A program made the position numbers and the translations under genes. From Mycoplasmatota bacterium (GTDB lineage Bacteria > Bacillota_I > Bacilli_A > Izemoplasmatales > Hujiaoplasmataceae), in NCBI GenBank assembly GCA_018622675.1, contig CP076020.1:1550001-1614000 (forward strand): a DNA stretch of 64,000 bases. Reading direction: 5' to 3'. The notes under the pieces are model-generated. The model made no database searches, was not told the origin of the DNA, and saw only the letters and a list, made by a program, of their open reading frames with translations. This document shows, in pieces, positions 13,913 to 45,560 of the stretch (positions within the stretch are counted from its first letter, which is position 1; each line of letters begins with the position of its first letter).

Positions 13913-13918
13913 ATATTA

Positions 13919-13942
13919 GGGATACTTAGGTATCCCTTTGTT
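13919..13942 (+). terminator. Terminator between ftsH and rqcP
   Basis: GGGATAC (13919-13925) and GTATCCC (13930-13936) pair around TTAG, followed by TTTGTTT. It probably reduces read-through from ftsH into rqcP. Confidence 0.75.
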
Positions 13943-13959
13943 TAAAAAAAGGAGAATTT

Positions 13960-14208
13960 ATGAGACTTGATAAATTTTTAAAAGTATCTAGAATATTTAA
14001 AAGACGAACCGTTGCTAAAGAAGTTAGTAAAAACGGACGCGTTATCATTAATGATCGGACGGCTAAACCTGGAACTGAATTAAAGCCTGGGGATATACTT
14101 GAAATATCTTATGGTCAGAAAACAATTAAAATTAAAGTTCTTAAATTAAACTCATATATTAAAAAGGAAGACGCTGATTCAATGTATGAGATCATTGAAC
14201 AATCATAA
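13960..14208 (+). CDS. rqcP: S4-domain RNA-binding protein RqcP (YabO family)
   Basis: The 82-residue protein is almost entirely an S4 RNA-binding domain (MRLDKFLKVSRIFKRR at the N-terminus, GDILEI near 46). It has the size and sequence type of Bacillus YabO/RqcP, which binds stalled 50S subunits with RqcH during alanine tailing of nascent chains. The position between ftsH and lysS matches the same chromosome neighbourhood in Bacillus. The related heat-shock protein Hsp15 is the alternative, but it is normally longer. SD AAAGGAG precedes the ATG. Confidence 0.85.
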   Translation: MRLDKFLKVSRIFKRRTVAKEVSKNGRVIINDRTAKPGTELKPGDILEISYGQKTIKIKVLKLNSYIKKEDADSMYEIIEQS

Positions 14209-14212
14209 TTGT

Positions 14213-14241
14213 TTGATTATTCTATTAAATTTAGATATAAT
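14213..14241 (+). promoter_or_regulatory. Promoter of the zinc-binding lipoprotein gene
   Basis: TTGATT (14213-14218) and TATAAT (14236-14241) are 17 bases apart, immediately after the rqcP stop. Transcription would start about 10 bases before the ATG, giving a very short leader. No clear Zur-type palindrome is visible over it. Confidence 0.7.
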
Positions 14242-14256
14242 ACTAGAAGTGATTTA

Positions 14257-16732
<2,476 letters not shown>

Positions 16733-25811: not shown

Positions 25812-27500
25812 TTAATCTTTTATAAGATTATTTTTGTGATATGCAAAGCTCTCATTAATCGTATTTAACGCGATATTTTCAAGGTGATCAGCAATTCTTT
25901 CTAGGTTAGAAAGAATATCAACATAATAACCTGAAGAACTATCTTTAATTTTTGGATCATTGATTCTATTAATATGATTTATTCTAAATTCTTTAACAAG
26001 TCTATCGACTTCTTTTTCTCTTTTAATCACTTGGTTAGCTAAATCTTTATCATTATTAAAGTAAGCGCGATAAGCTTCTTCAAAAGATTCTCTTATTAAT
26101 TTAAACAATTGATTCATTTCTTGGCATTCAAAATCATTGAAGATTAATTTTTTCTCTTTTCTTTCAAAGAATAACTCAAATAAATTATCGATATGATCAC
26201 CTATGCGTTCGTAATCACTGATTGTATCAATATTTTTCGCAACCATCTGCATTTGACTTGAACTTAAATCATTAGATCCAATTTCAACCAAATAGTTATG
26301 TATTTTATCTTCCATAGAATCAATAAGTTCTTCACATTGCAAACCTATTTCATAAGACTTATCATCATTTTCCATGGCATAGCTATAAATAAACTCATAC
26401 ATACCAAAAGCGCAATTACTCATATTTTTAATAGCAACCAATGAGTTTTCTATGGCTAAATCAGGTGATTCCTTTAATAATAATTTATCTAAAACAACCT
26501 CTTCAATATCAAGTTCTCCTTTAGAAGGAATCAACTTAGTCACCAACCATACAATATGCTTAATAAAGAAGAATAAAATAAAGATGGTCATTAAGTTAAA
26601 TAATACATGGGATATTGAAATGGTTAATTTATTAGTTAAGTATCCATCGCCTATGACTGAACTTGCCATCCAAGCAACTAAGTTTGAATATGGTTTCAAT
26701 AATATTAAGAATAAGACTGTACCAAAAAGATTAAACATCACATGTACAAGGGCAGTTCTTTTAGCACTACTTGTCCCACCTACTGACGCAAAGATGGATG
26801 TTACCGTTGTTCCTATATTGTCACCTAATACAATGGCAATTGCCCCAATTAAAGGCACAGCTCCTGTTGAGAATAATTGTTGTAAAATACCAATTGTAGC
26901 AGATGAAGATTGAATAATAGCTGTGGTTACAGCACCCACTAAGACACCAATGATTGGCCTATCTTCAACACTTAATAACATAGTTCTAAAAGCATCTAAT
27001 TCAACGAGTTTTTTTAGTGCATCACCCATAGTTTCTAATCCGAAAAACAAAAGACCAAAACCTAAAATCACACGACCAAGGGTTTGTATCTTTCTTTTCT
27101 TAATAAAGAAAATCATAAAAGAACCAATAAAAATGATAGGGAAAATATATTTGTCTATATTTAAAGAAATAATCACCGATGTAAACGTTGTCCCTAAATT
27201 GGCTCCAAAAATGACACCAACAGCTTGTGGTAGTGTCATCAGTCCTGCTCTAACTAATCCAACAACTAAGGCTGAAGTTGCTGAAGAAGATTGAATTAAT
27301 GCGGTTAGTAAAATCCCAACAAATATACCTTTTAATGGTGTATTTGTTGTTTTTTCTAAAAATAATTTAAGTTTATTCCCGGCTAACTTCTTAAGAGAAT
27401 CACTCATTAAGCTCATTCCATAGAGGAATATACCTAAACCTCCAACAACAGCAAATGTAATATCTACCCAGTCAATCGCCAAAAAAAATAAAACCGACAT
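25812..27500 (-). CDS. Na+/phosphate cotransporter with C-terminal PhoU-like domain
   Basis: The 562-residue protein belongs to the NptA/YjbB Na/Pi cotransporter family, which moves phosphate with sodium, in some cases outward. The two inverted halves each carry the signature QSSSAT (near residues 66 and 197) in about 8-9 membrane helices (residues 15-320). A helical PhoU-like domain follows (about 350-550). The SD AAGGAG precedes the ATG. A 10-bp inverted repeat surrounds the leader and start codon. Phosphate export or uptake would fit an organism that consumes nucleic acids, but direction cannot be read from sequence. Confidence 0.92.
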   Translation of the reverse strand: MSVLFFLAIDWVDITFAVVGGLGIFLYGMSLMSDSLKKLAGNKLKLFLEKTTNTPLKGIFVGILLTALIQSSSATSALVVGLVRAGLMTLPQAVGVIFGANLGTTFTSVIISLNIDKYIFPIIFIGSFMIFFIKKRKIQTLGRVILGFGLLFFGLETMGDALKKLVELDAFRTMLLSVEDRPIIGVLVGAVTTAIIQSSSATIGILQQLFSTGAVPLIGAIAIVLGDNIGTTVTSIFASVGGTSSAKRTALVHVMFNLFGTVLFLILLKPYSNLVAWMASSVIGDGYLTNKLTISISHVLFNLMTIFILFFFIKHIVWLVTKLIPSKGELDIEEVVLDKLLLKESPDLAIENSLVAIKNMSNCAFGMYEFIYSYAMENDDKSYEIGLQCEELIDSMEDKIHNYLVEIGSNDLSSSQMQMVAKNIDTISDYERIGDHIDNLFELFFERKEKKLIFNDFECQEMNQLFKLIRESFEEAYRAYFNNDKDLANQVIKREKEVDRLVKEFRINHINRINDPKIKDSSSGYYVDILSNLERIADHLENIALNTINESFAYHKNNLIKD

Positions 27501-27571: not shown

Positions 27572-28531
27572 TTATTTATCTAATCCTTCTTTATATTCTT
27601 TAACTAATTTATCAGCATCTTTTAATAAATCTTCAGTTTTATCCCATGTCCCTAAATTAGCACCACAAGCTAAAGCATGTCCACCACCATCATATTGATT
27701 CGCTAATTTATCAATAGCAGGTCCTTTAGAACGCATTCTAGCTCTTACAAATCCTTCTTCATATTCAGCAAATAACATCCAAACAGGACAATCTTCTAAT
27801 TGTGATAACTCATTAACAAGAGATGTTGCTTCTTCTAATGAAACGTCAAATTCTTCCACCAAGTCGTTTGTCATATTAATATATGCAACCCCGTTCTCAG
27901 TTTTCTTAAAGTTTAATAAAACATACCCTTGTAGTTTTAATAAATTCTCAGACTTAACACTTAATTTATTTAAAACTTCTACAAAATCTAATCCATAATC
28001 TAGTAAATATGCAACCGATCTAAATGTATCAGAATTGACAGATCTAAATCTAAATCTTCCTGTATCGGTTACAATTCCAGTATATAAAGCTATCGCTGCA
28101 TCCATATTCATTTTAAGTTCATCTTGATATTTCAAAAAGAACTCTAAAATAATTTGTGCAGAAGCTGGTCTAGATGTATCAACAAACATTAAATCGCCAT
28201 AATCATTAACTGGGATATGATGATCTATTTTAATCACATAATCACTTAATTTATATCTTTGATCCGATACCCTATCTTCTGAAGCTGTATCAACAACAAT
28301 TGATAAAGCACCTTCAAAGTCTTTATCCTCTAAAAGATCAGGCTTACCTACATATGAAACATAATCAGCTTCTTCACCCACTAAGTAAACTTCTTTTTCA
28401 GGATAAGTTTCTTTAATAATATTCTTTAAACCAAATCCCGCTCCATAACAATCTCCATCAGGTCTTTTATGAATATGCATAATAATTTTTTTATATTCTT
28501 TAATTTTTTCTAATATTTTATCTTGTACCAT
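27572..28531 (-). CDS. DHH-family oligoribonuclease/phosphatase (NrnA-like), copy 1
   Basis: DHH/DHHA1 proteins of this size degrade very short RNA or DNA oligomers and pAp, and can clear pApA or pGpG from cyclic dinucleotides. The 319-residue protein has HKRPDGDCYG near residues 20-29, the VDTAS metal motif near 90, DHHIP at about 107, and the C-terminal DHHA1 motif GGGHALACGA near 285. All manganese ligands are in place. Its start lies within the end of the upstream paralogue (14-base overlap), so the pair is coupled. No membrane or PAS/GGDEF part, so it is not GdpP. Confidence 0.93.
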   Translation of the reverse strand: MVQDKILEKIKEYKKIIMHIHKRPDGDCYGAGFGLKNIIKETYPEKEVYLVGEEADYVSYVGKPDLLEDKDFEGALSIVVDTASEDRVSDQRYKLSDYVIKIDHHIPVNDYGDLMFVDTSRPASAQIILEFFLKYQDELKMNMDAAIALYTGIVTDTGRFRFRSVNSDTFRSVAYLLDYGLDFVEVLNKLSVKSENLLKLQGYVLLNFKKTENGVAYINMTNDLVEEFDVSLEEATSLVNELSQLEDCPVWMLFAEYEEGFVRARMRSKGPAIDKLANQYDGGGHALACGANLGTWDKTEDLLKDADKLVKEYKEGLDK

Positions 28532-29471
28532 TATTTTCCTCCTCTAATAGTAAATCTAAGTCTTTTAAAATCATATCAGTTTCTTCCCAAGTATTGACCG
28601 AACATCCACAAGCTCTTAAGTGGCCCCCGCCGCCATATTTTTTAGCAACTTTTAGTACCTCATAATCTCTTGAACGTAATTCGCACTTGATATTATCTTC
28701 TTCTGAATCATAAGTAAAGTTAGCCCAAATAGGTATTTCTTTAATACCAGCCATTTGTCCAACTAAAGCTCTGCTTACAAAATGTGTATCTAAATGATAT
28801 TGTTTTATAAAGTCTTCTGTATTCTTTCGATAAGCGACATTCTTATCAGTCAATTCAACTGATTCAAAGAATATTGATTTAATCTTTTTATCTTCAAAGG
28901 TCTCTAAATAGATTAAATCATGAATTTCTTGCAAGTTAATTCCCGCTTCCATTAACTTAGAAGTCACATAAAAAGTTCTAGCAGTTGTTGAATTAAACCT
29001 AAACCTTCCTGTATCGCCTATAATCCCCATATATAATGCTTTAGCACTCTCTAGACTTATAGTCATATTCTTTTCTAAAAGCATATGAGCGACCATTTCA
29101 GCCGTTGATGATGCATTTATATCCCTTATATATAAATCATGGTCAATATCAGGATCATTTCTATGATGATCAACTAAAACGAGTTCTTTATAATACCTAT
29201 AATCTACTTCTCTTAACATTTGTTTAGCAACCGTATCCAAGATGATGACTAAAGATTTATTTCTTGTTTCAATAGAAACTTCATCAAAATCACCAAAGTA
29301 ATTTAAATTATTTGTATCCCCCACAATGTAAATATTTTTTTCTTTATATCTTTCTTTCAAAGCATAATACAATCCAAATTGAGATCCATAAGCATCTAAA
29401 TCAGGGTTTTTATGTCTAGCGACAACAATAGAATCATACTTATTAATTAATTCAAAAAATTTTTCCGTCAT
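28518..29471 (-). CDS. DHH-family oligoribonuclease/phosphatase (NrnA-like), copy 2
   Basis: A 317-residue paralogue of its downstream neighbour with the same layout: RHKNPDLDAYGSQFGL near 18-33, LDTVAK near 89, DHHRND near 107, GGGHLRACGC near 285. It is the first gene of the pair and has its own promoter (extended -10 TGGTATACT at 29498-29503 on the minus strand) and SD GGAGGG. Tandem NrnA-type genes with intact active sites suggest different substrates, for example linear dinucleotides and pAp. The endonuclease I lipoprotein gene is divergent, 143 bases away. Confidence 0.92.
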   Translation of the reverse strand: MTEKFFELINKYDSIVVARHKNPDLDAYGSQFGLYYALKERYKEKNIYIVGDTNNLNYFGDFDEVSIETRNKSLVIILDTVAKQMLREVDYRYYKELVLVDHHRNDPDIDHDLYIRDINASSTAEMVAHMLLEKNMTISLESAKALYMGIIGDTGRFRFNSTTARTFYVTSKLMEAGINLQEIHDLIYLETFEDKKIKSIFFESVELTDKNVAYRKNTEDFIKQYHLDTHFVSRALVGQMAGIKEIPIWANFTYDSEEDNIKCELRSRDYEVLKVAKKYGGGGHLRACGCSVNTWEETDMILKDLDLLLEEENNGTR

Positions 29472-29614
29472 TTATACCCTCCAAACGATAGTAAAATAGT
29501 ATACCATAAATGATTGTTATTTTCTATTAATTAACACTAAATCATTGTGTTTTTATATATGAAAATCAATATATATGATATAATAATTTGAAAATAAAAT
29601 TAAGGAGACCCATC

Positions 29615-30661
29615 ATGAATAAAAAAGTATTATCCTTCATCATCGTTGTATTATCATCATTTGTTTTTATTGCATGTAATAATACTGATGTTACCACAAC
29701 AGAAATACCTACCACTGAACAACCAACAACAGAAAACACCATTGCTAATATTGAAGTCACTGACTACCAAAAGTTCTATGAACTAAATGAAGATTTTAAC
29801 ATCGCATCTTTAGAAATCAAAGTCACACTTGCAAATAATGATGAATTTATAGTAGATCATTCAGACATTTCTATCAGAAACTTTAACTCTCAAACACCAG
29901 GAAAAAAAGTTATTTCTATTATTTACCAAGGAAACTTAATCAATATAGATTACGTTGTTCTTGAAGAATACGCCTTTGAAATTCATATGGAATACTATGA
30001 AGACGCTATCAACCTAAGAGGTGAACTATTAAAAGTAGCTTTAAACAACATTATTTCAGAAGACTTTGTTGATTTATTATATGGTGATGCCATATGGGTA
30101 CTAGAAGAATCAGATATTGATCCAGATAATCCAGATAATGTCATCTTAGTTTATCCTGGACAATATGGAGAATCAGTCCCTACAGGTTATTCCTCTGATA
30201 TAGAAGGTTACTATTGGAATAGAGAACATGTATGGCCACAATCTAGATTAGGAGAAAATGTTAGTTACACCGATGATTTTCCTAGTGTCGCTACAGATGT
30301 TCATAACCTTAAACCTTCTGATCCAGACGAGAATTCAAGACGATCTAACGACTATTTCGATTACTTTGATACCAACGATACTTTCGAACCAAGAGATGAA
30401 GTCAAAGGCGATATTGCACGTATATTATTTTATATGAGTACTAAGTACTTTCAACTTACATTAAACGAAGATCCTCTAACTGCATCAAATCAAAAAACAA
30501 TGGGCATTTTATCAGTCTTACTAGAATGGAACCAATTAGATCCAGTCGATGAATTTGAAATGAATAGAAACAATGTCATTTATAAACATCAAGGAAATAG
30601 AAACCCATTCATTGATTATCCTAACTTCGCGGAACTTATTTGGGGAGACCTAGCAGAATAA
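29615..30661 (+). CDS. Secreted endonuclease I-family lipoprotein
   Basis: A surface DNA endonuclease. The signal peptide ends in lipobox FIAC (Cys21); a Thr-rich linker follows (about 26-42), then a small Ig-like domain (about 45-117). The endonuclease I domain is from about 120 to 348, with WNREHVWPQS at 201-210, DVHNLKPSDP at 228-237 and NSRRS at 240-244, the His-metal catalytic elements of the family. I chose the ATG at 29615 because AAGGAG lies 7 bases before it. An extended -10 promoter (TGATATAAT) is at 29576-29584. Anchored outside the cell, it would cut environmental DNA. Confidence 0.92.
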   Translation: MNKKVLSFIIVVLSSFVFIACNNTDVTTTEIPTTEQPTTENTIANIEVTDYQKFYELNEDFNIASLEIKVTLANNDEFIVDHSDISIRNFNSQTPGKKVISIIYQGNLINIDYVVLEEYAFEIHMEYYEDAINLRGELLKVALNNIISEDFVDLLYGDAIWVLEESDIDPDNPDNVILVYPGQYGESVPTGYSSDIEGYYWNREHVWPQSRLGENVSYTDDFPSVATDVHNLKPSDPDENSRRSNDYFDYFDTNDTFEPRDEVKGDIARILFYMSTKYFQLTLNEDPLTASNQKTMGILSVLLEWNQLDPVDEFEMNRNNVIYKHQGNRNPFIDYPNFAELIWGDLAE

Positions 30662-30728: not shown

Positions 30729-30761
30729 TAAAAAGGCACTACATTAAGTAGCGCCTTTTAT
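30729..30761 (-). terminator. Terminator of the ABC importer/surface lipoprotein operon
   Basis: On the minus strand AAAAGGCGCTAC pairs with GTAGTGCCTTTT around a short loop, with T runs after it; 31 bases past the stop of the 1608-residue lipoprotein gene. Confidence 0.85.
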
Positions 30762-30791: not shown

Positions 30792-33700
30792 TTAGTATAA
30801 TATTATGTCGTCTAAATTAACTCTTTGTTTATCTGGTGTTAATGTATGTTTCACTGTAAATCTAACATAAGTTGCGTCAGTTACATCGGAAGTAATCTCA
30901 TATACACTATCAGTTTCTGTTAAAGTAATAGTTGTTCCAGTACTCCATGTAGTTCCATCAGTAGAAAATTGAACAACTAACTCCATTCCTGAAGACTGAT
31001 TAGTAAATGAATAAAACTGAACATTGTTGAAAGCTACAGTAGATACATATTCTGCATATGGGAATCCTGAGACTGAATCATAATCTCTCATTTGCAAATG
31101 CATATCATCAGTAGAACCATTAGTTGTTGTAACAGTACCTTCTCCAACTGTCCACCCATTTACATCTGTTAATCCACCAGTATAGCCAGTACTTGAAGTA
31201 AATCCTTCAGATGTTTCGAAACCAGTTGAATAAACAGAATTAATTACTTCAACATCTAAGGTTTTAGTAACTACAGTCTCGCTATTTAGAGATATTTCAA
31301 TAGTGATTTGACCAGTGACTTTTCCCGTTGGTGCAGTAAATAGAATTGAGCCATCAGTTGTTGTGTAATCAAGATATGTAGCAGCATCTCCTGTAATTCC
31401 TGTAACAGTATATGTTGATCCATATTTTGCAGTTGGAATAACATAATCTTCTGTAATTGTAAGCATATCAGGGAAACTGTATGTATCAGCTTGAAGTTTT
31501 AAACTATCAGTAAACTCAATCTCAAAGGTATCTATTTGGTTATCATCATCTCTATAATTGTAGAAGATAAATGAAGTTTCTGGTAATAAATCACCAGCAA
31601 CAAATGCATCATTTAACCAGTCAGCATAATTTCCATGAAATCTTAAAGTAAGTTGAATAGTTTTGCTTGTCCCTTCTACTTCAAATATTGCAGGATAAGG
31701 GTAACTTGTTGAAATAGAAACTACTTTCAAACCGGTATATGTAATTAGTCTACCTGAGTCCGAAGCATCTAAGGCAATAATTTCATCAGCAGTTAAGGTT
31801 GTATAAACTAAGTCGTTTGCTGTAGAAACAACAGTTTCTTGTACACCATTAAGCAACACTCTTACGCCATAATCAACACCTAATGTTCCAGAAAACATCA
31901 CTTCTTCTCCAACAGTTCCATCTTTATCATCTATAAAGAATCCATTACCATTTTCATCTTGAATAAATAAACCATCGAATGTATCTTGAGTAATAACACC
32001 AACAACATAAACTTCAGTTCCTGTTGCGATGTCATATTCATCATCAGTCATTGAATGTAGTGATGATAAATCAGTTATTTCAGCCATCATATTATATGTG
32101 ATAACTAATGTTTCTGAAACACCACCTTTAGTGATTGTAGCCGTTAATACAACTACAGAATCAGTACCTTCTGCTCTCGCAATTGTTAAATCAGTTCCTG
32201 ATAATGTTGTTAATGAATCAACATCTGCTATGTCCCAAGCAATTGTTGAACCGTTTGTACCAGTAGCTGGAAGAGAAACGCTTACTTCTGTGTAAGCATC
32301 TCCACCAGTAATATTAGTCTTTAACTCTTCAATATCAGCAGCTACTCTATCAACATCTGTAACACCTTCAATTTTATAAACAAATGTTCCAGTTAATTCT
32401 TCGTCATTTAATGTAACTACTGCTTGTAATGTTACTTCCTCTACAGTGTCAGCAGGTACTTCAGTAAATGTAATTTCACTATCTGTAGCATCAAATGTAG
32501 CATTTGAATCTTCATCCGCTTCTTTTGTCCATACTATAGTACTTCCATTAGCGCCTGTTGTTGGTAATGTAACTGTTTGAGCAGTTTTAATTATTCCACC
32601 AAAATCTAAAGCAGCTAAGTCAGCATTAACTTTAGTAGCATCATCCATATCAATTGTTTCAACATCATGTGATCCTACATAATCAAATGTATCTGCTGCA
32701 TATTCATCCCATTCTGCAGCTGTAAAAGTTGTGTTTGGTGATAATACAGATTCTTTTCTAACCCAAGTAAGTTCACCAGCAACTTTATCGTCTTTTGTAT
32801 GTCCAACTTCTAAAATAATGTCAATAATAGTACCATCTTTAACTAAGGCAACAGCGTCATCACCATTAAAATAAGTTGCTGTTGAAGCTACATCGCCTTC
32901 AGCTGTAACAGCTGCGTTAGCATCAGCATTATAGATTACAAATACTTCTCCATCTGCTAATGTACCAGTTAATTCTTCAGTATTACCTGCTTCAGTTGAA
33001 CCATTTGAATATACAACTATTTTATAATCTGATAAGTCAACTTCAGCACCAGTACCATTATAAATTTCAATCCATTTATTGTTTGAAGAACCTTCACCAT
33101 ATTCTGAAATAATTAACTCAGTTGTTGGTGCTATTAATGATGAACTAGGAATAGTTACTTCAACTTCTACTTCTTCTTCAACTGTTCCGCTAACGACTTT
33201 AAAAGTAATGATTGCGCTAACTTCGGTACCGTAAGCTTTAGAAACTTCTAAAGTTCCAGTAGTTGAAGTTGAATCGATAAAGTTAGAAGCAGTACCAAAA
33301 ATTTCTAATACAGAAATTTTACTTCCAAAATCTCCAGTTGCATAAGCATAGTCAGCTGTTAATTCTAATTCGTCTCCCATGTTTCTAACATCTAAAGTTA
33401 CTTTATCTTGATCAGTTAATTCTTGAACTGTGAATTCAGTAGTTGTTACTAAAGCTAATTGTGGTCCATTGTACCATGAAAGAATAGTGACAACATCAAC
33501 TTTATCTCCTTCTTCAAGTGCTTCTAATTCAGCAAATAAAGCAGCAGGTAAGTCATATCTTGAATCCCATTTCATAAATATAGTTTCGCCGTCTGAAATT
33601 CTTTCGAAAGTGATTTCATAGTTTCCATATTTGTCAGTTTCGATTGTATCAATAATCATTCCAGTTAACTCAATTAATTGAGATTGATAAGTTAATAATC

Positions 33701-35618
33701 CATCTTCATCAAGTGTGTAAGCATCAACATTTGTAGGTGTAGGTATTGATGGATTTTCTTTGAATGCTAGTGTATCAACTTTCATTTGGATTAAACCATT
33801 ATAGATTGATCTTTCTCCAGATACAGTAATGATATTACCAACATTTCTTTCTAGTAGATCAACATAATCATCATCATATACATTTAATGCGATATTTCCG
33901 CTATCATCTGCAATGAAGAATGATCCATAATATCCACCAGCAATAACAGTTCCTTCAACTTTTCCTAAATCTCCAATTGTTAAATCGATGAAATCAGAAA
34001 TAGTCATGACAGGAAGTGGTCCAACTTTAATGTCGAATTCTTTTGATGTTGTAACATCATTTAATGTTCCTGTAACTGTAACTGTTATAACCTCTTGAGC
34101 ATCTAAGTCATCTACTGTAATTTCTCCAGTAGTTGCGTCGAATATAGTATCATCAGTTGATGCAAACGATAAGTCTACACCATAAGCTGAGTCAAATAAT
34201 TCTAATGTTGTATCTTCGATAATTGTTTTAGGGAAATCGAAGATTCCTAACGCTGTATCAACAGCATCTTGATCAGTATCAAATTCTAATCCAACATCTA
34301 AAGCAGTTCCAAAGAAGTTTGCATAGAAAACTGTTTTATCTGTTCTATAACCTTGCATGATAATGTCAATAGTGATTTCTTCACCATGGAATGCTTTTAG
34401 AACATCCATATCTGAGTGATAATAAATCATAATTGCATCACCATTTGGTTGTGTAGCTCCATCTGCTAAATCAGCATCAAAGTCATAATCAGTTGGAACT
34501 AAGAATACTGAATAGTTACCCCATGATTCTTCATAATATACACTTGCTGTTACATTAAATTGAACATATTCATGTGGTTTTTCTGCTGATGGAACTGAAG
34601 TTGCATCAATAATATCTTTAATTCCATCTTTATCAACTGTAGGAATATCAGATTTCGCTTCTGTTGACGCTTCAACTCTTAAAGGTTTTGCAGCTGTTCC
34701 AGCTAATTGTGGTGCATTGTAATAAAAATCAATATTACCAGTAATGTCATAGACACTACCTACTTCAGAATCAAATGTTGGTGAATATACATATAGAATA
34801 TCTGTTCCATCTGTAAAGAATACATCACCATTGTCATATTTTGCAATCACTGTAATACCAGTAATTTCAACATATGCATCTTGACCTTCAGCAATTGCAT
34901 CAGCGATTGAATCTACTTCAGTACCCACTGCCATTTTTGCTACAGTGAAAGTTCTATCTTGTGAGAACTCAGTACCATCAACTGTAAACTTAGCAGTTAA
35001 AGTAACATCTACATCTGCATCTTCAGGTTGAGTGATTTCACCATCAGTTGCAATAATATCAGGATGTGAACTAGTCCAAGTGATTGGATATTCGTTCCCA
35101 TTATCATCTTTACCAGTTGTTGTTAAGTTAAGATCATCTGCTGATGTCCAAAACTCATTGTCTGGAATTGCAAAAACGAATAAGAAAACTTCATCGCGAA
35201 TTTCTTCAACTGTTTTTTCTTCTAGTGCTTTAATTGTTACGAAGAAGCTGTAAGTTTCTGTTTCATCTCCAGAAGCAATCGTTACTGTTAATGTAACAGT
35301 TTGCGTTTGCTCTGTGACAGTTGGACGAGTTACCGTACCGTCATTTGCAAGATAATCAGTGTTACTACTACTCCATGTAAAAGTGTAATCACCAAAAGAA
35401 TCAATTAATGTAATATCATCAGTCGCTTCGAAAGTTTCTTTTTCTATTGTGTCAACATAAACTGTTTGTAAGAAATCGATAGCAGGCTGAAAATCTACAG
35501 ACGTCGGCGTTTCACTTGTAGGCGCTTCGGTCGTTTCGTCGTCTCCATTACATCCCACTAAAACAATAGCGAATAATGCAATGAAAAGAAGACTGAATAA
35601 CTTTTTGTTAAACTTCAT
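30792..35618 (-). CDS. Giant multidomain surface lipoprotein with lamin-tail and OB-like domains
   Basis: A 1608-residue lipoprotein (lipobox VGC, Cys23) with a Thr/Pro linker. Repeated beta-sandwich modules of the atrophied bacterial Ig type are seen near 45-130, 155-230, 450-535, 990-1085 and 1088-1178. OB-like modules near 245-315, 545-620 and 1200-1260 recall the nucleic-acid-binding OB domains attached to YhcR-type nucleases. A lamin-tail domain spans about 830-985 (IISEYGEGSSNNKWIEIYN), and a jelly-roll-like end domain about 1460-1608. I see no nuclease or other catalytic motif, so it is more likely a binding or scaffold protein. It is the last gene of the ABC importer operon, 56 bases after the binding-protein gene. 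Confidence 0.8.
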   Translation of the reverse strand: MKFNKKLFSLLFIALFAIVLVGCNGDDETTEAPTSETPTSVDFQPAIDFLQTVYVDTIEKETFEATDDITLIDSFGDYTFTWSSSNTDYLANDGTVTRPTVTEQTQTVTLTVTIASGDETETYSFFVTIKALEEKTVEEIRDEVFLFVFAIPDNEFWTSADDLNLTTTGKDDNGNEYPITWTSSHPDIIATDGEITQPEDADVDVTLTAKFTVDGTEFSQDRTFTVAKMAVGTEVDSIADAIAEGQDAYVEITGITVIAKYDNGDVFFTDGTDILYVYSPTFDSEVGSVYDITGNIDFYYNAPQLAGTAAKPLRVEASTEAKSDIPTVDKDGIKDIIDATSVPSAEKPHEYVQFNVTASVYYEESWGNYSVFLVPTDYDFDADLADGATQPNGDAIMIYYHSDMDVLKAFHGEEITIDIIMQGYRTDKTVFYANFFGTALDVGLEFDTDQDAVDTALGIFDFPKTIIEDTTLELFDSAYGVDLSFASTDDTIFDATTGEITVDDLDAQEVITVTVTGTLNDVTTSKEFDIKVGPLPVMTISDFIDLTIGDLGKVEGTVIAGGYYGSFFIADDSGNIALNVYDDDYVDLLERNVGNIITVSGERSIYNGLIQMKVDTLAFKENPSIPTPTNVDAYTLDEDGLLTYQSQLIELTGMIIDTIETDKYGNYEITFERISDGETIFMKWDSRYDLPAALFAELEALEEGDKVDVVTILSWYNGPQLALVTTTEFTVQELTDQDKVTLDVRNMGDELELTADYAYATGDFGSKISVLEIFGTASNFIDSTSTTGTLEVSKAYGTEVSAIITFKVVSGTVEEEVEVEVTIPSSSLIAPTTELIISEYGEGSSNNKWIEIYNGTGAEVDLSDYKIVVYSNGSTEAGNTEELTGTLADGEVFVIYNADANAAVTAEGDVASTATYFNGDDAVALVKDGTIIDIILEVGHTKDDKVAGELTWVRKESVLSPNTTFTAAEWDEYAADTFDYVGSHDVETIDMDDATKVNADLAALDFGGIIKTAQTVTLPTTGANGSTIVWTKEADEDSNATFDATDSEITFTEVPADTVEEVTLQAVVTLNDEELTGTFVYKIEGVTDVDRVAADIEELKTNITGGDAYTEVSVSLPATGTNGSTIAWDIADVDSLTTLSGTDLTIARAEGTDSVVVLTATITKGGVSETLVITYNMMAEITDLSSLHSMTDDEYDIATGTEVYVVGVITQDTFDGLFIQDENGNGFFIDDKDGTVGEEVMFSGTLGVDYGVRVLLNGVQETVVSTANDLVYTTLTADEIIALDASDSGRLITYTGLKVVSISTSYPYPAIFEVEGTSKTIQLTLRFHGNYADWLNDAFVAGDLLPETSFIFYNYRDDDNQIDTFEIEFTDSLKLQADTYSFPDMLTITEDYVIPTAKYGSTYTVTGITGDAATYLDYTTTDGSILFTAPTGKVTGQITIEISLNSETVVTKTLDVEVINSVYSTGFETSEGFTSSTGYTGGLTDVNGWTVGEGTVTTTNGSTDDMHLQMRDYDSVSGFPYAEYVSTVAFNNVQFYSFTNQSSGMELVVQFSTDGTTWSTGTTITLTETDSVYEITSDVTDATYVRFTVKHTLTPDKQRVNLDDIILY

Positions 35619-35674
35619 TTTATTCCTCCTTTTAGAAATAAGTATTATTATATATTTAAATTAATTTTAAATAA

Positions 35675-37528
35675 TTAATTTAAGACTGCTTCAGAGGCTG
35701 ATTTAGCCGCAGCGATTGCACTATCAATAATTGATTGTTTGTCGCCATCTGTTCCTAATATAATACGTTCAAATGCAGCTTCAACTTCAGCTCTTGCTTT
35801 TGAAGAACCTACAAATGCTTGGTCATAGAATAATATATCAGCTTGTAACATTGCCGCATTTGCAGCTTTAGATTTCATTAACATTTCTCCAGCAAGAGGA
35901 CTTCCATCTGTATCTAAACCATTTGTGAAATCAATATATGTTGGTTGAGAATAAACAGAAGTTCTAACAGGTGAATATCCTGTTTCTAATGCGAAATCTA
36001 ATTGTACTTCTTGACTTGTTAAGAATTTTAAGAATAACCATGATGCCAATTTTTCTTGGTCAGTTCCAGCTGTTGTAATTGACATGTTAGTACCTTGTTG
36101 GATTGCTGTTCTGTTTTGTGGCATATTAGCATTATATGGCATTGGTGCTACACCAAATTCAAATGAGAATTCATCATCTACAACAGTAGGCGTATTATAT
36201 CTTGCTCCACCAGTTGAACCAAATGTAATTGCTGTTTGACCAGTTTTGAATGCATCTGAACCATATTCAGTTCCCCATCTATTTGGTACAGTGAATGCTC
36301 CAGGATTGTCATCTTCATCTCTGTTATCATAGAAATAAGACATTGCTGATCTTGTTTGAGCATTATCAAATAAAATAACCCCTTGTCTTTCAGCATTGAT
36401 TGTCGTATATTCTCCGCCCCATTGTCTAGTTAAAGTAATGAATGCGTTTGAAGGTGAATCATATGTAATTGGAACAAAGTTGTCTTTAATATTTTGTCTT
36501 TCTTCTGCAGTTTTATGTACAGAACTAGATTCAGCTTGATTTAAAGTATCAACGATTTGATCAATAACACCATTGTCTTCAGTTGCTATTCTTCTTAAAT
36601 CTTCATTTAATGCCATTAATCCTTGCCATGTAGTAGGGATTTCTGCAATGACACCTTCTTCAATTAATGCATCCATCATCGTTTTATTATAAATCATAAC
36701 CTCTGTTGATTTATTAAATGGAATAGAATAATATTCACCATCTGGTGTATATTGTGAATTTTCTTGTCTATAACTTAATACGATATCTAAGAATGATTCT
36801 CCTTCTACATCTGGGTTATATCCATGATTAACATCATATATATAAGGTGTGATCGGAATAACTGCATTTTTATCAATATATTCCATCACGTGGTCAGGGT
36901 AATTTTGAACAATATTTGGAAGTTCCCCACCTTGAATCGCGTTAACTACATTTGATCTTAATTCATCATAGTTAGCACCATTTGCTGTAATAGTCACAGA
37001 AATATTTGGATATAACGCTTCAAAATCTTCAGCATATCCAATTAAAGCACTTTCTACAGTGGCTCCATTTGAATGCCATAATTCAATTTCGATATTATCT
37101 GACGTTAGCTCTTCAGGAATTGTATAAGCAGTTAAGTCTTTTACAGTAATTGAAACTTGTCTATTAATTAAGTTTCCGTCGCTATCTTCAACTGTCACAT
37201 ATACAGTATAAGAACCTGTTCTTGAAAGTGTATAAGAACCAACAATATTAATGTCTTCAGTGATATCTCCATCTTGGTCATCAATTGCTTGAACACCATC
37301 TAAAATATCATAGTCTTGTGAACCACGATAATATGTTTGATTTGCGAATAAGCCAACGAATCTAGGCTCTTCTTGCTCTGTTTCCTCCGTTATTGGCGGA
37401 TTTGTAACAGGAGCGTTTGTTGTAGGCGCTTCTGTAGTCGCATCAGTCCCGTCACCATTACAACCTATTAATGCAATTGCGAATAATGCGAAAACAAAGA
37501 TACTTAATATTTTTTTACTAATCTTCAT
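35675..37528 (-). CDS. CUT1-type ABC importer solute-binding lipoprotein with N-terminal Ig-like domain
   Basis: The 617-residue lipoprotein (lipobox IGC, Cys23) carries an unusual extra domain of the DUF5011 Ig-like type at about 52-131, ahead of an extracellular binding protein of the UgpB/MalE family (about 140-610). That family binds sugars, oligosaccharides or glycerol phosphates. Markers include IELWHSNG near 146 and TRQWGGEY near 364. The signal peptide and the following CNGD...TTEAPT linker closely resemble those of the next gene's product. A promoter with a palindrome lies just upstream, so it can be transcribed apart from the permease genes. Substrate unknown. Confidence 0.9.
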   Translation of the reverse strand: MKISKKILSIFVFALFAIALIGCNGDGTDATTEAPTTNAPVTNPPITEETEQEEPRFVGLFANQTYYRGSQDYDILDGVQAIDDQDGDITEDINIVGSYTLSRTGSYTVYVTVEDSDGNLINRQVSITVKDLTAYTIPEELTSDNIEIELWHSNGATVESALIGYAEDFEALYPNISVTITANGANYDELRSNVVNAIQGGELPNIVQNYPDHVMEYIDKNAVIPITPYIYDVNHGYNPDVEGESFLDIVLSYRQENSQYTPDGEYYSIPFNKSTEVMIYNKTMMDALIEEGVIAEIPTTWQGLMALNEDLRRIATEDNGVIDQIVDTLNQAESSSVHKTAEERQNIKDNFVPITYDSPSNAFITLTRQWGGEYTTINAERQGVILFDNAQTRSAMSYFYDNRDEDDNPGAFTVPNRWGTEYGSDAFKTGQTAITFGSTGGARYNTPTVVDDEFSFEFGVAPMPYNANMPQNRTAIQQGTNMSITTAGTDQEKLASWLFLKFLTSQEVQLDFALETGYSPVRTSVYSQPTYIDFTNGLDTDGSPLAGEMLMKSKAANAAMLQADILFYDQAFVGSSKARAEVEAAFERIILGTDGDKQSIIDSAIAAAKSASEAVLN

Positions 37529-37617: not shown

Positions 37618-38256
37618 TTAGTCAACGATAATGATTAACCCACTAATCGTTGATTCAGCTCCATCTTCATCAGCGACTAATAATGAAAATTCCATAACTT
37701 CACCAGTAGCAAAAATTTGAGGTAAAATCATTTTATCCGGATCATAAATATAGTCACCATTTGAGTCAGTTTTTACTTGTCCTAATAATTCTTCTTCCTC
37801 TGGTGTTAAGTCTTCACCAAAATCATCTTCACTCCAGATATCAAAGAATGAAGTTACGAGAATATTTTCTGAAATTTCAACATAATCTCTATCTGCTCCA
37901 ACCTCAACATAATCTTGGATAAAGTCAACCGCGATTAAGTTTTGATTATTAATTAAATCATCAAGCATGTCATCAGGATGAAAAGCAGTGCCTTTTTTAT
38001 GTTCATAGATAATATATTGATCACCATAAACATCTTTATAATCGAAAGTTTCCCCAGCATTTTCAGGATTTCTATTAAATGCGTTTTTATCTCTTTGATA
38101 GGTATCAGAAGTTAAAGATTGTAAATTGATTAATTCTTCTTCTCCATTCACTTCAACCAAACGGTTGAAACTAGGTCCACGATTTATTTTAGAAGGACAT
38201 CCCATCATTGCAACAATTAAGAATAATGTTGCTGAAAATAGTAATATTTTTTTCAT
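37618..38256 (-). CDS. Small lipoprotein of unknown function in the ABC importer operon
   Basis: A 212-residue predicted lipoprotein with lipobox MGC (Cys19); no family recognised. The mature part is acidic and ends in a short beta-rich stretch. The start at 38256 was chosen because AGGAGGAG lies upstream and the signal peptide then begins MKKILLFS; the longer reading frame starts within the permease gene. It sits between the second permease and the binding protein, 13 bases after the permease stop, so it is probably an accessory component of the importer. Confidence 0.72.
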   Translation of the reverse strand: MKKILLFSATLFLIVAMMGCPSKINRGPSFNRLVEVNGEEELINLQSLTSDTYQRDKNAFNRNPENAGETFDYKDVYGDQYIIYEHKKGTAFHPDDMLDDLINNQNLIAVDFIQDYVEVGADRDYVEISENILVTSFFDIWSEDDFGEDLTPEEEELLGQVKTDSNGDYIYDPDKMILPQIFATGEVMEFSLLVADEDGAESTISGLIIIVD

Positions 38257-38269
38257 CTTTTTCTCCTCC

Positions 38270-39724
38270 TTATCCTTTCGTACCGCTTCGTCCAATACCA
38301 TTCATAATGTATTTTCTAAATGCAAAGAATACAATTAATAGTGGCACTGTAACCAAGGTACTTGCTGCGATTTGAAGGTTATACATTACACGTCCATTAT
38401 CTTGGACAAAAGCTGTATCTCTTAAGGCGTTTGAAATCAACCAGTATTGTTTACCTTCTTCTCCACCAACACCAGTAATGATTCTTGGCCAAATATATGC
38501 ATTCCATGAACTAAACACATTTAAAATAGTAATTGTAAAAATAGTTGGACTTGCGATTGGTACCATCACTCTTGTTAAATATTTAAAGTCACTACATCCA
38601 TCAATACGAGCAGCTTTATATAATGATTCTGGAATCTGCTTAAAGTTTTGTCTTAAGAAGAAGATGAATGAAATACTTGTGATAAATGGAATGATCATAG
38701 CTAGGAAATATGAGTTATTCTCAGTTCCTACCCATCCTAAACCATTTTTACTAACTGTAATGAAGTTAGTGATAATGTATAATTCACCAGGAATCATCAT
38801 GGTCATGATTAAGATTGTAAATAATAATTCTCTACCTTTAAATTCAATTCTAGCAAAAGCATATGCAGAAAGAATGGTAGTAATAATTGTACCGATAGTA
38901 GAGAAAATAGCTACTGTAATCGTATTTCTAATATATAAACCAAAATTCAATTCCTCTAATACAACTTTAAAGTTAATCCAATTCATTCTTGATAATCCAA
39001 TAAAGAATTCAGGTGATGTTGATGTTGCTCCTGTAAAATCTTTTAATGAAGTTAAGATCATCCAATAGAATGGAATAACAATGATCAAAGCCATAAAGAC
39101 TAAGAATAAGTAAGTCAATAATAATCTCAGTACATGAGCGATGTTTTGACGTCTAATATTTTTCTTTAAAGTATAAGTTGCATCATCATATTCTGATTCA
39201 TCAATTTTTTCTTTTTTTGTTGTTAATTTGCTGAATTTAGCTTTAATTGCAGGAATAATACTTTTAAAGAAGTCTTTAGGTTTATAACCCTTTACAAACT
39301 CTACTAGAATAAACATATTCCATATTCTTAAGACAAATCCACCGATATTAAATGATAGTAAATTAATGATTGCATTCGTAAATTTTGAACCTGCAACATA
39401 TGAATCTACTTCATAAATAGTTCTTGATTTTAGTTTCTTAACATTAATCACAAACATTGGTACTGAAATAATCATGAAGATTACTAAAATCGAGATGATT
39501 AAGTTCATTTGTGCATAACCAATATTAGCTCCAATAAACTCATAAGTTGGGAAGAAAAACTCTAATTCTTCTAAAATAACTTCATTTGTTGTTGGATCAA
39601 TTGGATATATTAACATTCCAAAGAAAACTAAGAAAAGAGTAATATAAGCTATAATTGCAAAAGCATCAAAAATAAATGTAATTTTTTCTAAATTATTAGA
39701 TTTTTTAAATAAGTCTCTATTCAT
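38270..39724 (-). CDS. ABC importer permease, MalG/UgpE type, with long N-terminal extension
   Basis: The C-terminal ~280 residues (about 200-484) are a normal CUT1 permease with six helices and the EAA loop SLYKAARIDGCSDFKYLTRV near 369-388, which contacts the ATPase. The first ~200 residues are an addition with about three more membrane helices (near 17-39, 70-95, 118-142) and a charged cytoplasmic stretch. Family members usually have 270-300 residues. The start has a good SD (GGGAGG). The gap to the first permease is 15 bases. Confidence 0.92.
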   Translation of the reverse strand: MNRDLFKKSNNLEKITFIFDAFAIIAYITLFLVFFGMLIYPIDPTTNEVILEELEFFFPTYEFIGANIGYAQMNLIISILVIFMIISVPMFVINVKKLKSRTIYEVDSYVAGSKFTNAIINLLSFNIGGFVLRIWNMFILVEFVKGYKPKDFFKSIIPAIKAKFSKLTTKKEKIDESEYDDATYTLKKNIRRQNIAHVLRLLLTYLFLVFMALIIVIPFYWMILTSLKDFTGATSTSPEFFIGLSRMNWINFKVVLEELNFGLYIRNTITVAIFSTIGTIITTILSAYAFARIEFKGRELLFTILIMTMMIPGELYIITNFITVSKNGLGWVGTENNSYFLAMIIPFITSISFIFFLRQNFKQIPESLYKAARIDGCSDFKYLTRVMVPIASPTIFTITILNVFSSWNAYIWPRIITGVGGEEGKQYWLISNALRDTAFVQDNGRVMYNLQIAASTLVTVPLLIVFFAFRKYIMNGIGRSGTKG

Positions 39725-39739
39725 TTTATAGCTCCTCCC

Positions 39740-40804
39740 TTAGTAGTGAACGCGTTTTTTGCTGGCTTGCATTTGGACTAAAGTAAGAACCAAAATAATA
39801 CCAAACAAAATTAACGATCCCGCTGCTGCAATCGACAAGTTATTTCCGCCACCATCAATGTATTGGTAGATGTACATAACAATAGATTGCATTGTATAGT
39901 TAGCTCCAGCCGGACGACCAGTAACACCAAATAACGCAACGATTTGATTATAGATTTTAAATGCCCCAATAACTGATGTCACCAAAATATAGAAAATCAT
40001 TGGTGAAATTAATGGCACAGTAATTCTTGAAAAGATTCTTCTTCTAGGTGTCGCATCAATAGCTGCTGCTTGATAATATTGTTTATCAATACCTTGGATA
40101 CTTGTTAAGAAAACCATAATTTTAAAAGCCAATGTACCCCAAGTTGCATAAAAGATTAACACGAACATTGAACGCCAATACTCAGCGCCTTGTTCCACCC
40201 AAGAAAATTTACCTAAACCAAATAATTCATTGACTAACCCGCCATCAGCTTTAAACATATAGGCAATAACTAACCCAATCGCGATTGTGTTAGTTACATA
40301 TGGTAAGAAATAAATGGTTTGGAAAAAACCTTTTAATGGTTTAATACCGTTTAATGCTACAGAAATAAATAATGATAAGAAAATTGAAACTGGCACTGAA
40401 ATAAATACAATAATCAATGTATTCATAACTGCAGTCCCTTCAGTATGTGATGCAGCAAAAAGGAAACTTTCGTCATTAATAACTTTAATAAAGTTACCAA
40501 ATATTGTGTATCCAGTAATTGTATTATTACTCATGTTGTAACCTTCATAAAGCATTAATCTAAATGAGTTTATAATTGGCCAAAAAGTAAATACCGATAA
40601 TACAATAAGTGCAGGAGATAAATATATTAGCGCTCTAGCCCATCCCGGAAATTTTGTTGCAAGATTTAAATTTTTCTTATCTAAATATGCTCCAATTTTT
40701 TTCTTTCTCGCATTAAAGGCTCTTCTCATATCCCAGAAAAACGTTTTAATTGAAGTCGTCATCTTTCTGAAAGAACTTTTAATGTTTTTTATTAAACTAG
40801 CCAT
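39740..40804 (-). CDS. ABC importer permease, MalF/UgpA type
   Basis: The 354-residue permease has about six membrane helices between residue 57 and the C-terminus. The EAA loop YYQAAAIDATPRRRIFSRIT lies near 246-265. The first ~50 residues are basic and cytoplasmic, longer than in typical UgpA proteins. The gene overlaps the end of the ATPase gene by 8 bases. It forms the transmembrane channel with the next permease. The substrate is not determined by sequence; most relatives carry sugars or glycerol derivatives. Confidence 0.94.
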   Translation of the reverse strand: MASLIKNIKSSFRKMTTSIKTFFWDMRRAFNARKKKIGAYLDKKNLNLATKFPGWARALIYLSPALIVLSVFTFWPIINSFRLMLYEGYNMSNNTITGYTIFGNFIKVINDESFLFAASHTEGTAVMNTLIIVFISVPVSIFLSLFISVALNGIKPLKGFFQTIYFLPYVTNTIAIGLVIAYMFKADGGLVNELFGLGKFSWVEQGAEYWRSMFVLIFYATWGTLAFKIMVFLTSIQGIDKQYYQAAAIDATPRRRIFSRITVPLISPMIFYILVTSVIGAFKIYNQIVALFGVTGRPAGANYTMQSIVMYIYQYIDGGGNNLSIAAAGSLILFGIILVLTLVQMQASKKRVHY

Positions 40805-41870
40805 GATTGATTACCTTTCCAGTATCTTTATCAAAGACATATAATCTCTTACGTTTACAAGTAAGTTCTACAGATTTGTCATTGTCTCCCACTGAATCGG
40901 AATCAACTAATGCACGAATGTTTTGTCCATTTAATTCAAAGTGAATCATAGTATCTCTACCCACGTGGAAGATTTCTTTGATATCAACTTTAATTTTATC
41001 TTTTGAATCTTTTTCTGCAACTCTAAAATGTTCAGGTCTAATACCGATGATATATGAACCATCTTTAACTTCTTTAAATTGCATGAATTTTTGATCATTA
41101 AAAATTACAGCGCCATCTTTAACGTCAGCTTCAAAAGAATTGATTGGAGGATTACCTAAGAATTTAGCTACAAATAAGTTTGCTGGTGTATTATACATTT
41201 CTTGTGGTGCAGAATATTGTTGCTCAACACCAAAGTTTAATACAACCATTTTGTCAGAAATACTCATTGCTTCTTCTTGGTCATGGGTTACAAACACTGT
41301 TGTAATTCCAGTTTCTCTTTGAATTCTTTTAATTTCTTCACGCATTTGTAATCTTAAACGAGCATCTAAGTTAGATAGTGGCTCATCTAATAATAAAACT
41401 CTTGGTTTCTTTACAAGCGCTCTTGCAATAGCAACACGTTGTTGCTGTCCACCAGATAATTGAGCAGGCTTTCTGTCTAACATTGTTCCAATACCAACTA
41501 AGTCAGCCATTTCTTTAACACGTTGAATTGCTTCATCTCTTGGAACATCCATGTTTTCTAATGGAAACATGATGTTTTTGTAAACAGTCATGTGAGGATA
41601 TAATGCATAGTTTTGGAAAACTAAACCAATACCTCTTTTTTCAGGCGCTAATTTTGTTACATCATCTTCACCGAAGAAGATTTTACCTCTTGTAGGTTTT
41701 AATAAACCTGCAATCATGAAAAGTGTTGTCGATTTACCACATCCAGATGGCCCTAACAAACCAACAAGTGTTCCTGAGTCAATTGTTATACTTAAATCAT
41801 CAACAGCTGTTGTATCTGTACCAGTCTTATTTGTGAAAATCTTTGTTAAATTCTCTAATCTTAATTCCAT
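40797..41870 (-). CDS. ABC importer ATPase, MalK/MsmK/UgpC type
   Basis: The 357-residue ATPase has Walker A GPSGCGKST near residues 39-47, signature LSGGQQQR near 142, Walker B VLLLDEP near 163, the switch His in VTHDQEE near 199, and a C-terminal TOBE/OB regulatory domain (about 240-357) as in MalK. It is the first gene of the importer operon, which then runs through two permeases, a small lipoprotein, the binding protein and the giant lipoprotein. MsmK-type ATPases can serve more than one importer. Confidence 0.95.
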   Translation of the reverse strand: MELRLENLTKIFTNKTGTDTTAVDDLSITIDSGTLVGLLGPSGCGKSTTLFMIAGLLKPTRGKIFFGEDDVTKLAPEKRGIGLVFQNYALYPHMTVYKNIMFPLENMDVPRDEAIQRVKEMADLVGIGTMLDRKPAQLSGGQQQRVAIARALVKKPRVLLLDEPLSNLDARLRLQMREEIKRIQRETGITTVFVTHDQEEAMSISDKMVVLNFGVEQQYSAPQEMYNTPANLFVAKFLGNPPINSFEADVKDGAVIFNDQKFMQFKEVKDGSYIIGIRPEHFRVAEKDSKDKIKVDIKEIFHVGRDTMIHFELNGQNIRALVDSDSVGDNDKSVELTCKRKRLYVFDKDTGKVINHG

Positions 41871-41961: not shown

Positions 41962-42780
41962 TTATTCATATGGTTTTCTTTTTTCTTTTCTTTTTTTAAA
42001 GAAAATAAAATACGTTGAAAATATTAATATCAAGAAATATGCACCCATAACAATCCCCATGATGTATATATATTCATCAACAAGGTAGTTATTGGTTGTT
42101 ACAACCTGTTCCTTAGGTTGTATACTTGAATCCTCTAACAAATGAATGTTTTCATATGTTGGAAATTCATTATACTCATTATAAAATACAGTTAATTTAT
42201 CCTTAATGGTAAAATCTTCTTCACTTAAATTTAAAGCGCTTTCAGTTATCGTATTGTTTTCTGTGTCTTTTAATTGAATTAGATTATAGTTGTTTTCTAA
42301 ATCTATTTCACCTTTTTCAACTAAAAACATAGAAGATTCCGCATTCACTGAGGATAAAATATCTAAACCTTGATATCTGATTAAATCAATATCAAAGCTT
42401 TCTCCTGAGTCATTGTTATGTAATTTGATTGTATTGACTTTATCAAGTTCTCCTACTTGCTCGTGATAAACTATAAAGAATAAATACTCTTCAATAGATG
42501 AAAATTCATCTTGATCATCTTTTATAATCCTTGCAATTTCATAAGCTCTTATCTGATAGCCAGATTGATCAATATTTACTACTGGTTCACTTTTATGATA
42601 ATCCGGAAAGGATGCATAGAAGTAATAAAATTCTGGAAGGTCAGATGCTTCATCAGTCAGTGACCCACCAAAGATATCTTCATAATACGCTTCTCTCATT
42701 TTGATTGTCGAGAAACTAAAAGCCAACAAAAATATCCCTACTGCAAATAAGGCATATAGAAACCTACCAAAAATTCTCAT
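41962..42780 (-). CDS. Bitopic membrane protein of unknown function
   Basis: The 272-residue protein has one N-terminal membrane helix (about 8-25) and one near the C-terminus (about 236-260), with an acidic external domain of about 200 residues between them and a basic cytoplasmic tail (KKRKEKRKPYE). No family recognised. It overlaps the end of the nuclease lipoprotein gene by 4 bases (ATGA), so it is co-translated and probably functions with it at the cell surface. A gap of 91 bases follows before the ABC importer operon. Confidence 0.72.
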   Translation of the reverse strand: MRIFGRFLYALFAVGIFLLAFSFSTIKMREAYYEDIFGGSLTDEASDLPEFYYFYASFPDYHKSEPVVNIDQSGYQIRAYEIARIIKDDQDEFSSIEEYLFFIVYHEQVGELDKVNTIKLHNNDSGESFDIDLIRYQGLDILSSVNAESSMFLVEKGEIDLENNYNLIQLKDTENNTITESALNLSEEDFTIKDKLTVFYNEYNEFPTYENIHLLEDSSIQPKEQVVTTNNYLVDEYIYIMGIVMGAYFLILIFSTYFIFFKKRKEKRKPYE

Positions 42781-44960: not shown

Positions 44961-45560
44961 TTAAAATTTCTTTCTGTTTTCGATAGCTTTCGATAAAGTC
45001 AGTTGATCTGCATACTCTAAATTAAGTCCAACAGGCACCCCATAACCAATTCTACTCACTGTTAAATCAGTGTCTTGTAAGACTCTTTTAATATATAAAG
45101 CTGTTGTTTCTCCTTCTTGAGTCGATGACGTTGCAATGATGATTTCTTTCACTTTTTTTTCAGCTACCCTATCCCATAAAGTCTTCAAGTTTAACTCTTC
45201 TGGCCCAATACCATCTGCGGGTGATAAAACACCATTTAATACATGATATAAACCTTTATATTGTGATGTATCTTCTATTGAAAAAACATCTTTCGGGCTT
45301 TCAACAATCAATATGATTGATTGATCTCTTTTTTCGTTAGAACATATATGACAAACTTCTTTGTCTGTAAGATTATTACAAACTTTACAGTAATTGATAC
45401 GTTCTTTTAATTGGGTTAATGTTTCTGATAATTCTTTCACCGATTCCTTGTCCATTTTATTTATGGTATGGAAGACAAACCTTTCAGCTGTTTTTCTTCC
45501 AACACCCGGATATTTCATAAACTGAACAATTAAATCTTCAATTGATTTTGGAAAATTCAT
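44961..45560 (-). CDS. recR: Recombination mediator protein RecR
   Basis: RecR helps load RecA in the RecFOR pathway. The 199-residue protein has the helix-hairpin-helix GVGRKTAER near 19-27, a zinc finger with Cys58, Cys61, Cys70 and Cys73, and a Toprim domain (VESPKD near 85-90). Its ATG overlaps the ybaB stop by one base. The dnaX-ybaB-recR order is conserved in very many bacteria. Confidence 0.96.
   Translation of the reverse strand: MNFPKSIEDLIVQFMKYPGVGRKTAERFVFHTINKMDKESVKELSETLTQLKERINYCKVCNNLTDKEVCHICSNEKRDQSIILIVESPKDVFSIEDTSQYKGLYHVLNGVLSPADGIGPEELNLKTLWDRVAEKKVKEIIIATSSTQEGETTALYIKRVLQDTDLTVSRIGYGVPVGLNLEYADQLTLSKAIENRKKF

Follow-up and report, generated by a model that had tools for sequence, protein, structure and literature searches.

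The large surface lipoprotein investigated here (BIG, 1608 aa) is probably a non-catalytic component of the cell surface, which captures or holds nucleic acid for separate nucleases and an importer. We infer the binding itself, and the probability of the whole reading is about 0.6. Three features of this protein are new: it lacks catalysis, has a triple OB pair and is conserved throughout the class.

Gene and domain architecture of BIG

The gene is located at 30792 to 35618 on the minus strand of the window, which is the whole analysed stretch of 64,000 nucleotides; the surrounding genome comprises 1.65 Mb in a single contig. Open frame, translation and Pfam matches define the gene, with the ATG at 35618 and the stop at 30792. 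An AGGAGG ribosome-binding site (35625 to 35630, minus strand) lies within the 56 bases which separate BIG from the importer binding-protein gene, and no terminator was found in this gap. The first terminator of the transcript is an intrinsic one (30731 to 30759, minus strand), which ends the BIG transcript ahead of the convergent endonuclease I gene. A promoter scan of the region gave as many matches as expected for shuffled sequence. Residues 1 to 23 (35550 to 35618, minus strand) form a signal peptide with the lipobox LVGC, as in bacterial lipoproteins. The lipobox cysteine C23 was invariant in an order-level alignment of 19 sequences and near-invariant across the class (21 sequences). Thus, the frame is real and the lipobox conserved, and the initial annotation of a 1608-residue surface lipoprotein, 56 bases downstream of the binding-protein gene and with no terminator between, was confirmed by frame, lipobox, spacing and terminator scan. 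A homologue from the same genus (G001:C1:20580-23545) contains many stop codons and is either a pseudogene or the result of a poor assembly.

Pfam detected aBig_2 in four stretches of BIG (E 2e-41) and one lamin tail domain (LTD, E 3.8e-17); the LTD region of ExeM was matched with NCBIfam (5e-35). The OB modules are below Pfam detection in BIG itself, and its homologues match the OB families tRNA_anti-codon, BOF and DUF5689. BIG was modelled with AlphaFold2 as residues 1 to 830 and 815 to 1608, followed by Foldseek against the PDB. Chains of Ig-like modules and tandem OB pairs were obtained for the first part (mean pLDDT 86). In the second part the LTD, OB pair 3 and the following Ig-like module were mostly above 90, and the aBig modules of residues 989 to 1176 were modelled poorly. 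Overall, BIG is composed of Ig-like modules, one LTD, six OB modules in three tandem pairs and a C-terminal jelly roll. The Ig-like, OB-like and lamin-tail modules recognized previously were hence recovered by Pfam and AlphaFold2/Foldseek, and the structure prediction per module, proposed as a check, went slightly beyond them with the three pairs and the jelly roll.

All modules are given with their positions on the minus strand. Two aBig_2 Ig-like modules (residues 51 to 230, 34929 to 35468; Pfam and model) are followed by OB pair 1 (residues 231 to 445, 34284 to 34928; model and alignment), a further aBig_2 module (residues 446 to 536, 34011 to 34283; Pfam and model), OB pair 2 (residues 537 to 738, 33405 to 34010) and an Ig-like module (residues 739 to 824, 33147 to 33404; model). 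The LTD, supported by Pfam, NCBIfam and the model, covers residues 825 to 988 (32655 to 33146). Behind the two aBig-like modules with the low-confidence model (32091 to 32654), OB pair 3 (residues 1177 to 1370, 31509 to 32090), a modelled Ig-like module (residues 1371 to 1461, 31236 to 31508) and the CBM-like jelly roll (residues 1462 to 1608, 30795 to 31235; model and Foldseek) complete the protein.

In the models two consecutive OB folds are packed as a pair. The top Foldseek match of OB pair 3 was Teb1 AB (E 2e-5, probability 1.0), followed by dsDNA binders of the HIN-200 type (about 3e-4 and beyond, probability 1.0). For the N-terminal half IFI16 HIN was matched (E 2e-6), and the ssDNA binders RADX and CST weakly. 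As modelled, two of the three OB pairs resemble the tandem-OB DNA binders Teb1 and IFI16/HIN-200. The TM scores relative to the target are only 0.34 to 0.42, which indicates a resemblance of fold and not homology.

Operon context and conservation

The operon on the minus strand begins with a PASTA-LTD-SNase lipoprotein (42777 to 44540), assigned by Pfam and by the intact motifs DGDT, RFLGINTPE and YGR. It is followed by a 272-aa membrane protein (41962 to 42780), the UgpC-like ATPase of an ABC importer (40797 to 41870), permease 1 (39740 to 40804) and permease 2 (38270 to 39724), a small lipoprotein (37618 to 38301), the UgpB-like solute-binding lipoprotein of the importer (617 aa, 35675 to 37528; weak match to lipo_P68, 4e-10) and BIG. 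The small lipoprotein and the membrane protein, both with no assigned function, occupy the same positions in the loci of close relatives. Past BIG, an endonuclease I lipoprotein is encoded on the opposite strand (29588 to 30661, plus strand; Pfam, with HVWPQS, DVHNLKP and NSRRSN intact). Two DHH-DHHA1 phosphoesterases of NrnA type (28518 to 29471 and 27572 to 28531, minus strand; Pfam and motifs) and a Na/Pi-cotransporter-like protein (25812 to 27500, minus strand), syntenic in relatives, are adjacent. The latter was named from its sequence, as was a RecR-like gene just upstream of the operon (44961 to 45560); in strain zrk29, recR reportedly ranks with the most strongly induced genes of the locus.

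With the N-terminal model of BIG, matches were obtained in 64 of the 90 genomes from the order and, at class level, in 91 of the 198 genomes sampled. A BIG-like frame was present at 54 loci, of which 42 also contain the binding-protein gene, 41 the importer ATPase, 40 an SNase and 33 DHH1; many of the loci without these genes are cut by contig ends or represent distant paralogues. Furthermore, 20 loci outside this order, but within the class, were picked by their match to BIG and not by context. Importer and binding protein were found in all of them, the SNase in 18, and in 15 the binding-protein gene lies 22 to 118 bases from the BIG homologue. The linkage of BIG with importer and binding protein is far beyond chance. 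In general, an operon of ABC importer, binding protein, BIG, SNase and two DHH genes of oligonuclease type is fixed across the class, and the membership of BIG in it is firm. The importer context described initially is therefore that of a nucleic-acid acquisition operon, kept throughout the class.

Proposed capture of nucleic acid at the cell surface

In the proposed mechanism the Ig-like modules would extend the chain away from the membrane. Long oligonucleotides, or nucleic acid that is frayed or single-stranded, would be held by the three tandem OB pairs, perhaps with help from lamin tail and jelly roll, and conserved aromatic residues would provide most of the grip by stacking. The held polymer could be cut by the separate SNase and endonuclease I lipoproteins. 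Uptake of the fragments, presumably oligonucleotides, would occur by the UgpB-like binding protein and the ABC importer, and short oligonucleotides would be finished in the cytoplasm by the two DHH-DHHA1 enzymes. We infer the hand-over from BIG to the nucleases and the form of the substrate.

BIG is linked to nucleases by fusions and shared modules. In the same genome one polypeptide (L044:8812-12768) combines SBP, aBig, OB region and SNase, and its OB region is 62% identical to residues 129 to 438 of BIG. In sister families the SNase adjoining the BIG gene carries a C-terminal OB pair (DUF5689), which is homologous to OB pair 2 of BIG (hhalign 98%, E 1.8e-14). Genes of this locus type rise when Izemoplasmatales grow on DNA (PMC8397711, PMC10470597).

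The same mosaic of Ig-like and OB modules might serve as a docking scaffold, whose modules bind and assemble SNase, binding protein and importer with no contact to nucleic acid. The fixed gene order, the strong negative charge of BIG and the aBig_2, OB and LTD modules common to BIG and the neighbouring SNases are consistent with such a role. Two points argue against it and make it rather unlikely: some SNases carry OB pairs homologous to those of BIG in direct fusion, and ExeM loses its nuclease activity when its OB-containing region, a comparable region of two putative OB folds, is deleted (PMC6085458).

The SNase fusion protein of this genome (G000:C1, about 1,004.8 to 1,008.8 kb) is apparently non-lipidated and also carries cohesin and dockerin, i.e. 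cellulosome-type attachment modules on a protein of DNA degradation. Giant surface proteins are encoded in this region (G000:C1:945000-1010000, comprising L119-L121 and L044). Dockerins are present in frames of 5939 aa and 2515 aa and three cohesins in a frame of 1293 aa, besides an RCC1-repeat, Ig-rich protein; this is unusual for a wall-less bacterium.

With a net charge of -217 and a pI of about 4, BIG is strongly acidic. In the examined modules only K553 and R1253 form conserved basic columns, and in the OB pairs aromatic residues are conserved, basic ones hardly. Hence, nucleic acid captured by BIG would more likely be held by base stacking or through bridging metal ions than at its backbone. 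D270, Y299 and Y400 of OB pair 1 were invariant in the class alignment of 21 sequences, and the conserved aromatics of BIG concentrate in the OB modules (29 vs 9, Fisher p 0.002), which likewise points to base stacking, provided that nucleic acid is bound. The locus also encodes secreted nucleases, which are as acidic as BIG. Thus, the acidity is not decisive and may be a trait of the surface of this organism.

OB folds also bind proteins and sugars. Alternatively, BIG could be a surface adhesin or glycan binder, which anchors the cell on biofilm or organic particles and merely travels with the DNA locus. Foldseek matched the N-terminal half to Ig chains of S-layer proteins and cadherins as well, and the jelly roll to CBMs. 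SusE/SusF and CBM matches were found in single homologues, and one class-level homologue carries matches to glycan modules. An LTD protein was also detected in a pullulanase/importer cluster of a genome of the same order (L078:7828-12285 with 12555-15794). We consider this explanation unlikely, as only about four of the compared homologues align with the jelly roll, but conservation across the class holds for OB pair 1 and for the operon context.

The LTD contributes little to the question of DNA binding. In this genome it occurs in three proteins, BIG and two nucleases. The pullulanase cluster indicates that accessory proteins with an LTD occur outside DNA loci as well, and in ExeM the LTD is largely dispensable (PMC6085458); for both reasons it is weak evidence for binding. 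Relatives encode LTD proteins of 2660 aa (L079:6741-14723, L080:7027-15009), and the one scanned showed no other recognised domain. An LTD-endonuclease I lipoprotein (L045:6530-13289) is located beside an ABC importer which resembles nucleoside importers of BmpA/PnrA type by sequence; this arrangement suggests a separate route for nucleosides.

Absence of catalysis

No nuclease family was matched (Pfam, NCBIfam) in BIG or in its 18 order-level and 20 class-level homologues, 39 proteins in total, and none of them matched the EEP catalytic domain of ExeM/NucH. In BIG no catalytic motif was detected by regular expression, Pfam or NCBIfam, no hydrolase fold was found, and the examined modules have no conserved histidine column. 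The matches of the BIG family to the ExeM/NucH models of NCBIfam are restricted to the LTD and OB parts, and those of NF033681 to the OB parts of homologues are weak. A sequence search of the PDB with BIG as single query gave chance matches only. The hydrolases AbnA, GH43 and VesC appeared among the Foldseek results with about 500 to 880 columns at a TM of about 0.1 and an rmsd of about 25, and were rejected; the sequence match to AbnA is confined to one Ig-like module (residues 564 to 639 of the AbnA chain). The absence of a catalytic motif noticed at first sight thus holds for BIG and for its 38 homologues, and we regard a BIG without catalysis as firm. The operon context and the OB homology to SNase-fused pairs agree with the accessory type of protein which the initial annotation had assumed.

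SNase itself is an OB fold; hence a diverged catalytic domain, e.g. a variant SNase, was considered. The OB-pair profile matched staphylococcal thermonuclease weakly (E 0.4 to 1), residues 651 to 661 (TGMIIDTIET) resemble RLLLVDTPET, and in PMC8289736 a comparable large protein is annotated with a nuclease domain. With regard to the catalytic residues of SNase (R35, E43, R87, D21/D40), the position of R35 is occupied by threonine in BIG, no counterpart of R87 was found, and homologues do not conserve the segment. As this segment was the sole lead from the search for a hidden active site, and in view of the 39 proteins with no nuclease family and the missing histidine column, a hidden nuclease is very improbable.

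That BIG is the relic of an ExeM-type nuclease which lost its EEP domain in this lineage, as the ExeM matches of its LTD might suggest, is hardly credible, because EEP in 61 relatives is confined to short frames with one exception and in no case fused to LTD or OB, intact frames of the form without EEP are conserved throughout the class, and no orthologue with EEP was seen at the corresponding position of the operon in deep branches. A 757-aa EEP frame, considered as an LTD/OB fusion, is a high-GC frame at a contig edge with neither LTD nor OB.

Comparison with known systems

Izemoplasmatales were proposed as specialist DNA degraders, and extracellular DNA provides a sizeable share of the phosphorus in marine sediments (PMC8289736). 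Their DNA-degradation locus has been published (PMC8289736, PMC8397711, PMC10470597), and its co-localised secreted nucleases, ABC importer, NrnA-type enzymes and phosphate transport are found likewise at the BIG locus. One genome of the same genus and one of the same order possess such a locus too. Wasmund 2021 described this locus together with a protein of 1049 aa that has nucleic-acid-binding, nuclease and LTD domains (PMC8289736). For Xianfuyuplasma coldseepsis zrk13 'EddB' was up about 20-fold on DNA (PMC8397711), and for Hujiaoplasma nucleasis zrk29 the increase was about 27-fold for several genes of the locus, one of them encoding a hypothetical protein (PMC10470597). In contrast to the reported large protein with nuclease domain and to the gene name EddB, the BIG orthologue in a genome of the same order has no nuclease domain; only aBig_2 and LTD were matched in it. 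By elimination, the published 'EddB' is presumably an orthologue of the BIG family. The restriction of the ExeM/NucH matches to LTD and OB parts could explain the naming as nuclease or EddB.

A comparable operon of surface lipoprotein, SNase lipoprotein and Ugp-like ABC importer is known for MslA/P80-P81 of mycoplasmas (M. gallisepticum; M. agalactiae MAG_5030-5070; M. bovis 0307-0311), with the operon structure described in PMC3585158. As cited in PMC4045577, both ssDNA and dsDNA are bound by MslA of Mycoplasma gallisepticum, and this lipoprotein was suggested to pass oligonucleotides on to a separate nuclease and ABC importer. The division of labour, which had seemed undescribed, is therefore a known idea, and the locus is published too; what stands is that BIG is a different, additional part. 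BIG shares neither the sequence family nor the SBP fold of MslA/P80, and no SBP domain was found in it. Since MslA is the predicted binding-protein component of its importer, its counterpart here is the 617-aa binding protein and not BIG. The multi-OB lipoprotein is absent from the descriptions of MslA systems in PMC3585158 and PMC4045577. Together, the class-wide operon and the similar nuclease/ABC operons of mycoplasmas suggest an old nucleic-acid import system.

It is a tentative view that this class-wide operon for nucleic-acid utilisation has a dedicated non-catalytic capture protein with multiple tandem OB pairs, comparable to SusD/E/F in the capture of glycans, which holds the polymer at a wall-less surface for separate nucleases, with oligonucleotides imported and finished by the DHH enzymes. 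Should BIG, the largest protein of the DNA locus, serve for capture and not as an enzyme, the nuclease counts and annotations of these genomes would change. The layout of capture, cut and import would then be common to the foraging for DNA and for glycans, and large locus proteins published as nucleases or EddB would be capture proteins.

The LTD and a YhcR/YcgR-like OB-fold region, with two putative OB folds in ExeM/NucH/Xds, are also present in BIG. In contrast to these nucleases, BIG has no EEP catalytic domain and contains three OB pairs among Ig modules. Paired OB modules as in its predicted fold are known from HIN-200 (IFI16) and Teb1/RPA, but BIG is extracellular, has few conserved basic residues and shows no convincing sequence homology to them. 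SaeP and Csa of S. aureus are, like BIG, membrane lipoproteins and retain DNA at the cell surface (PMC6593408). Whereas these eDNA-binding lipoproteins were sought by high pI and serve the biofilm (PMC6593408), BIG is acidic and belongs to an operon of nuclease and importer.
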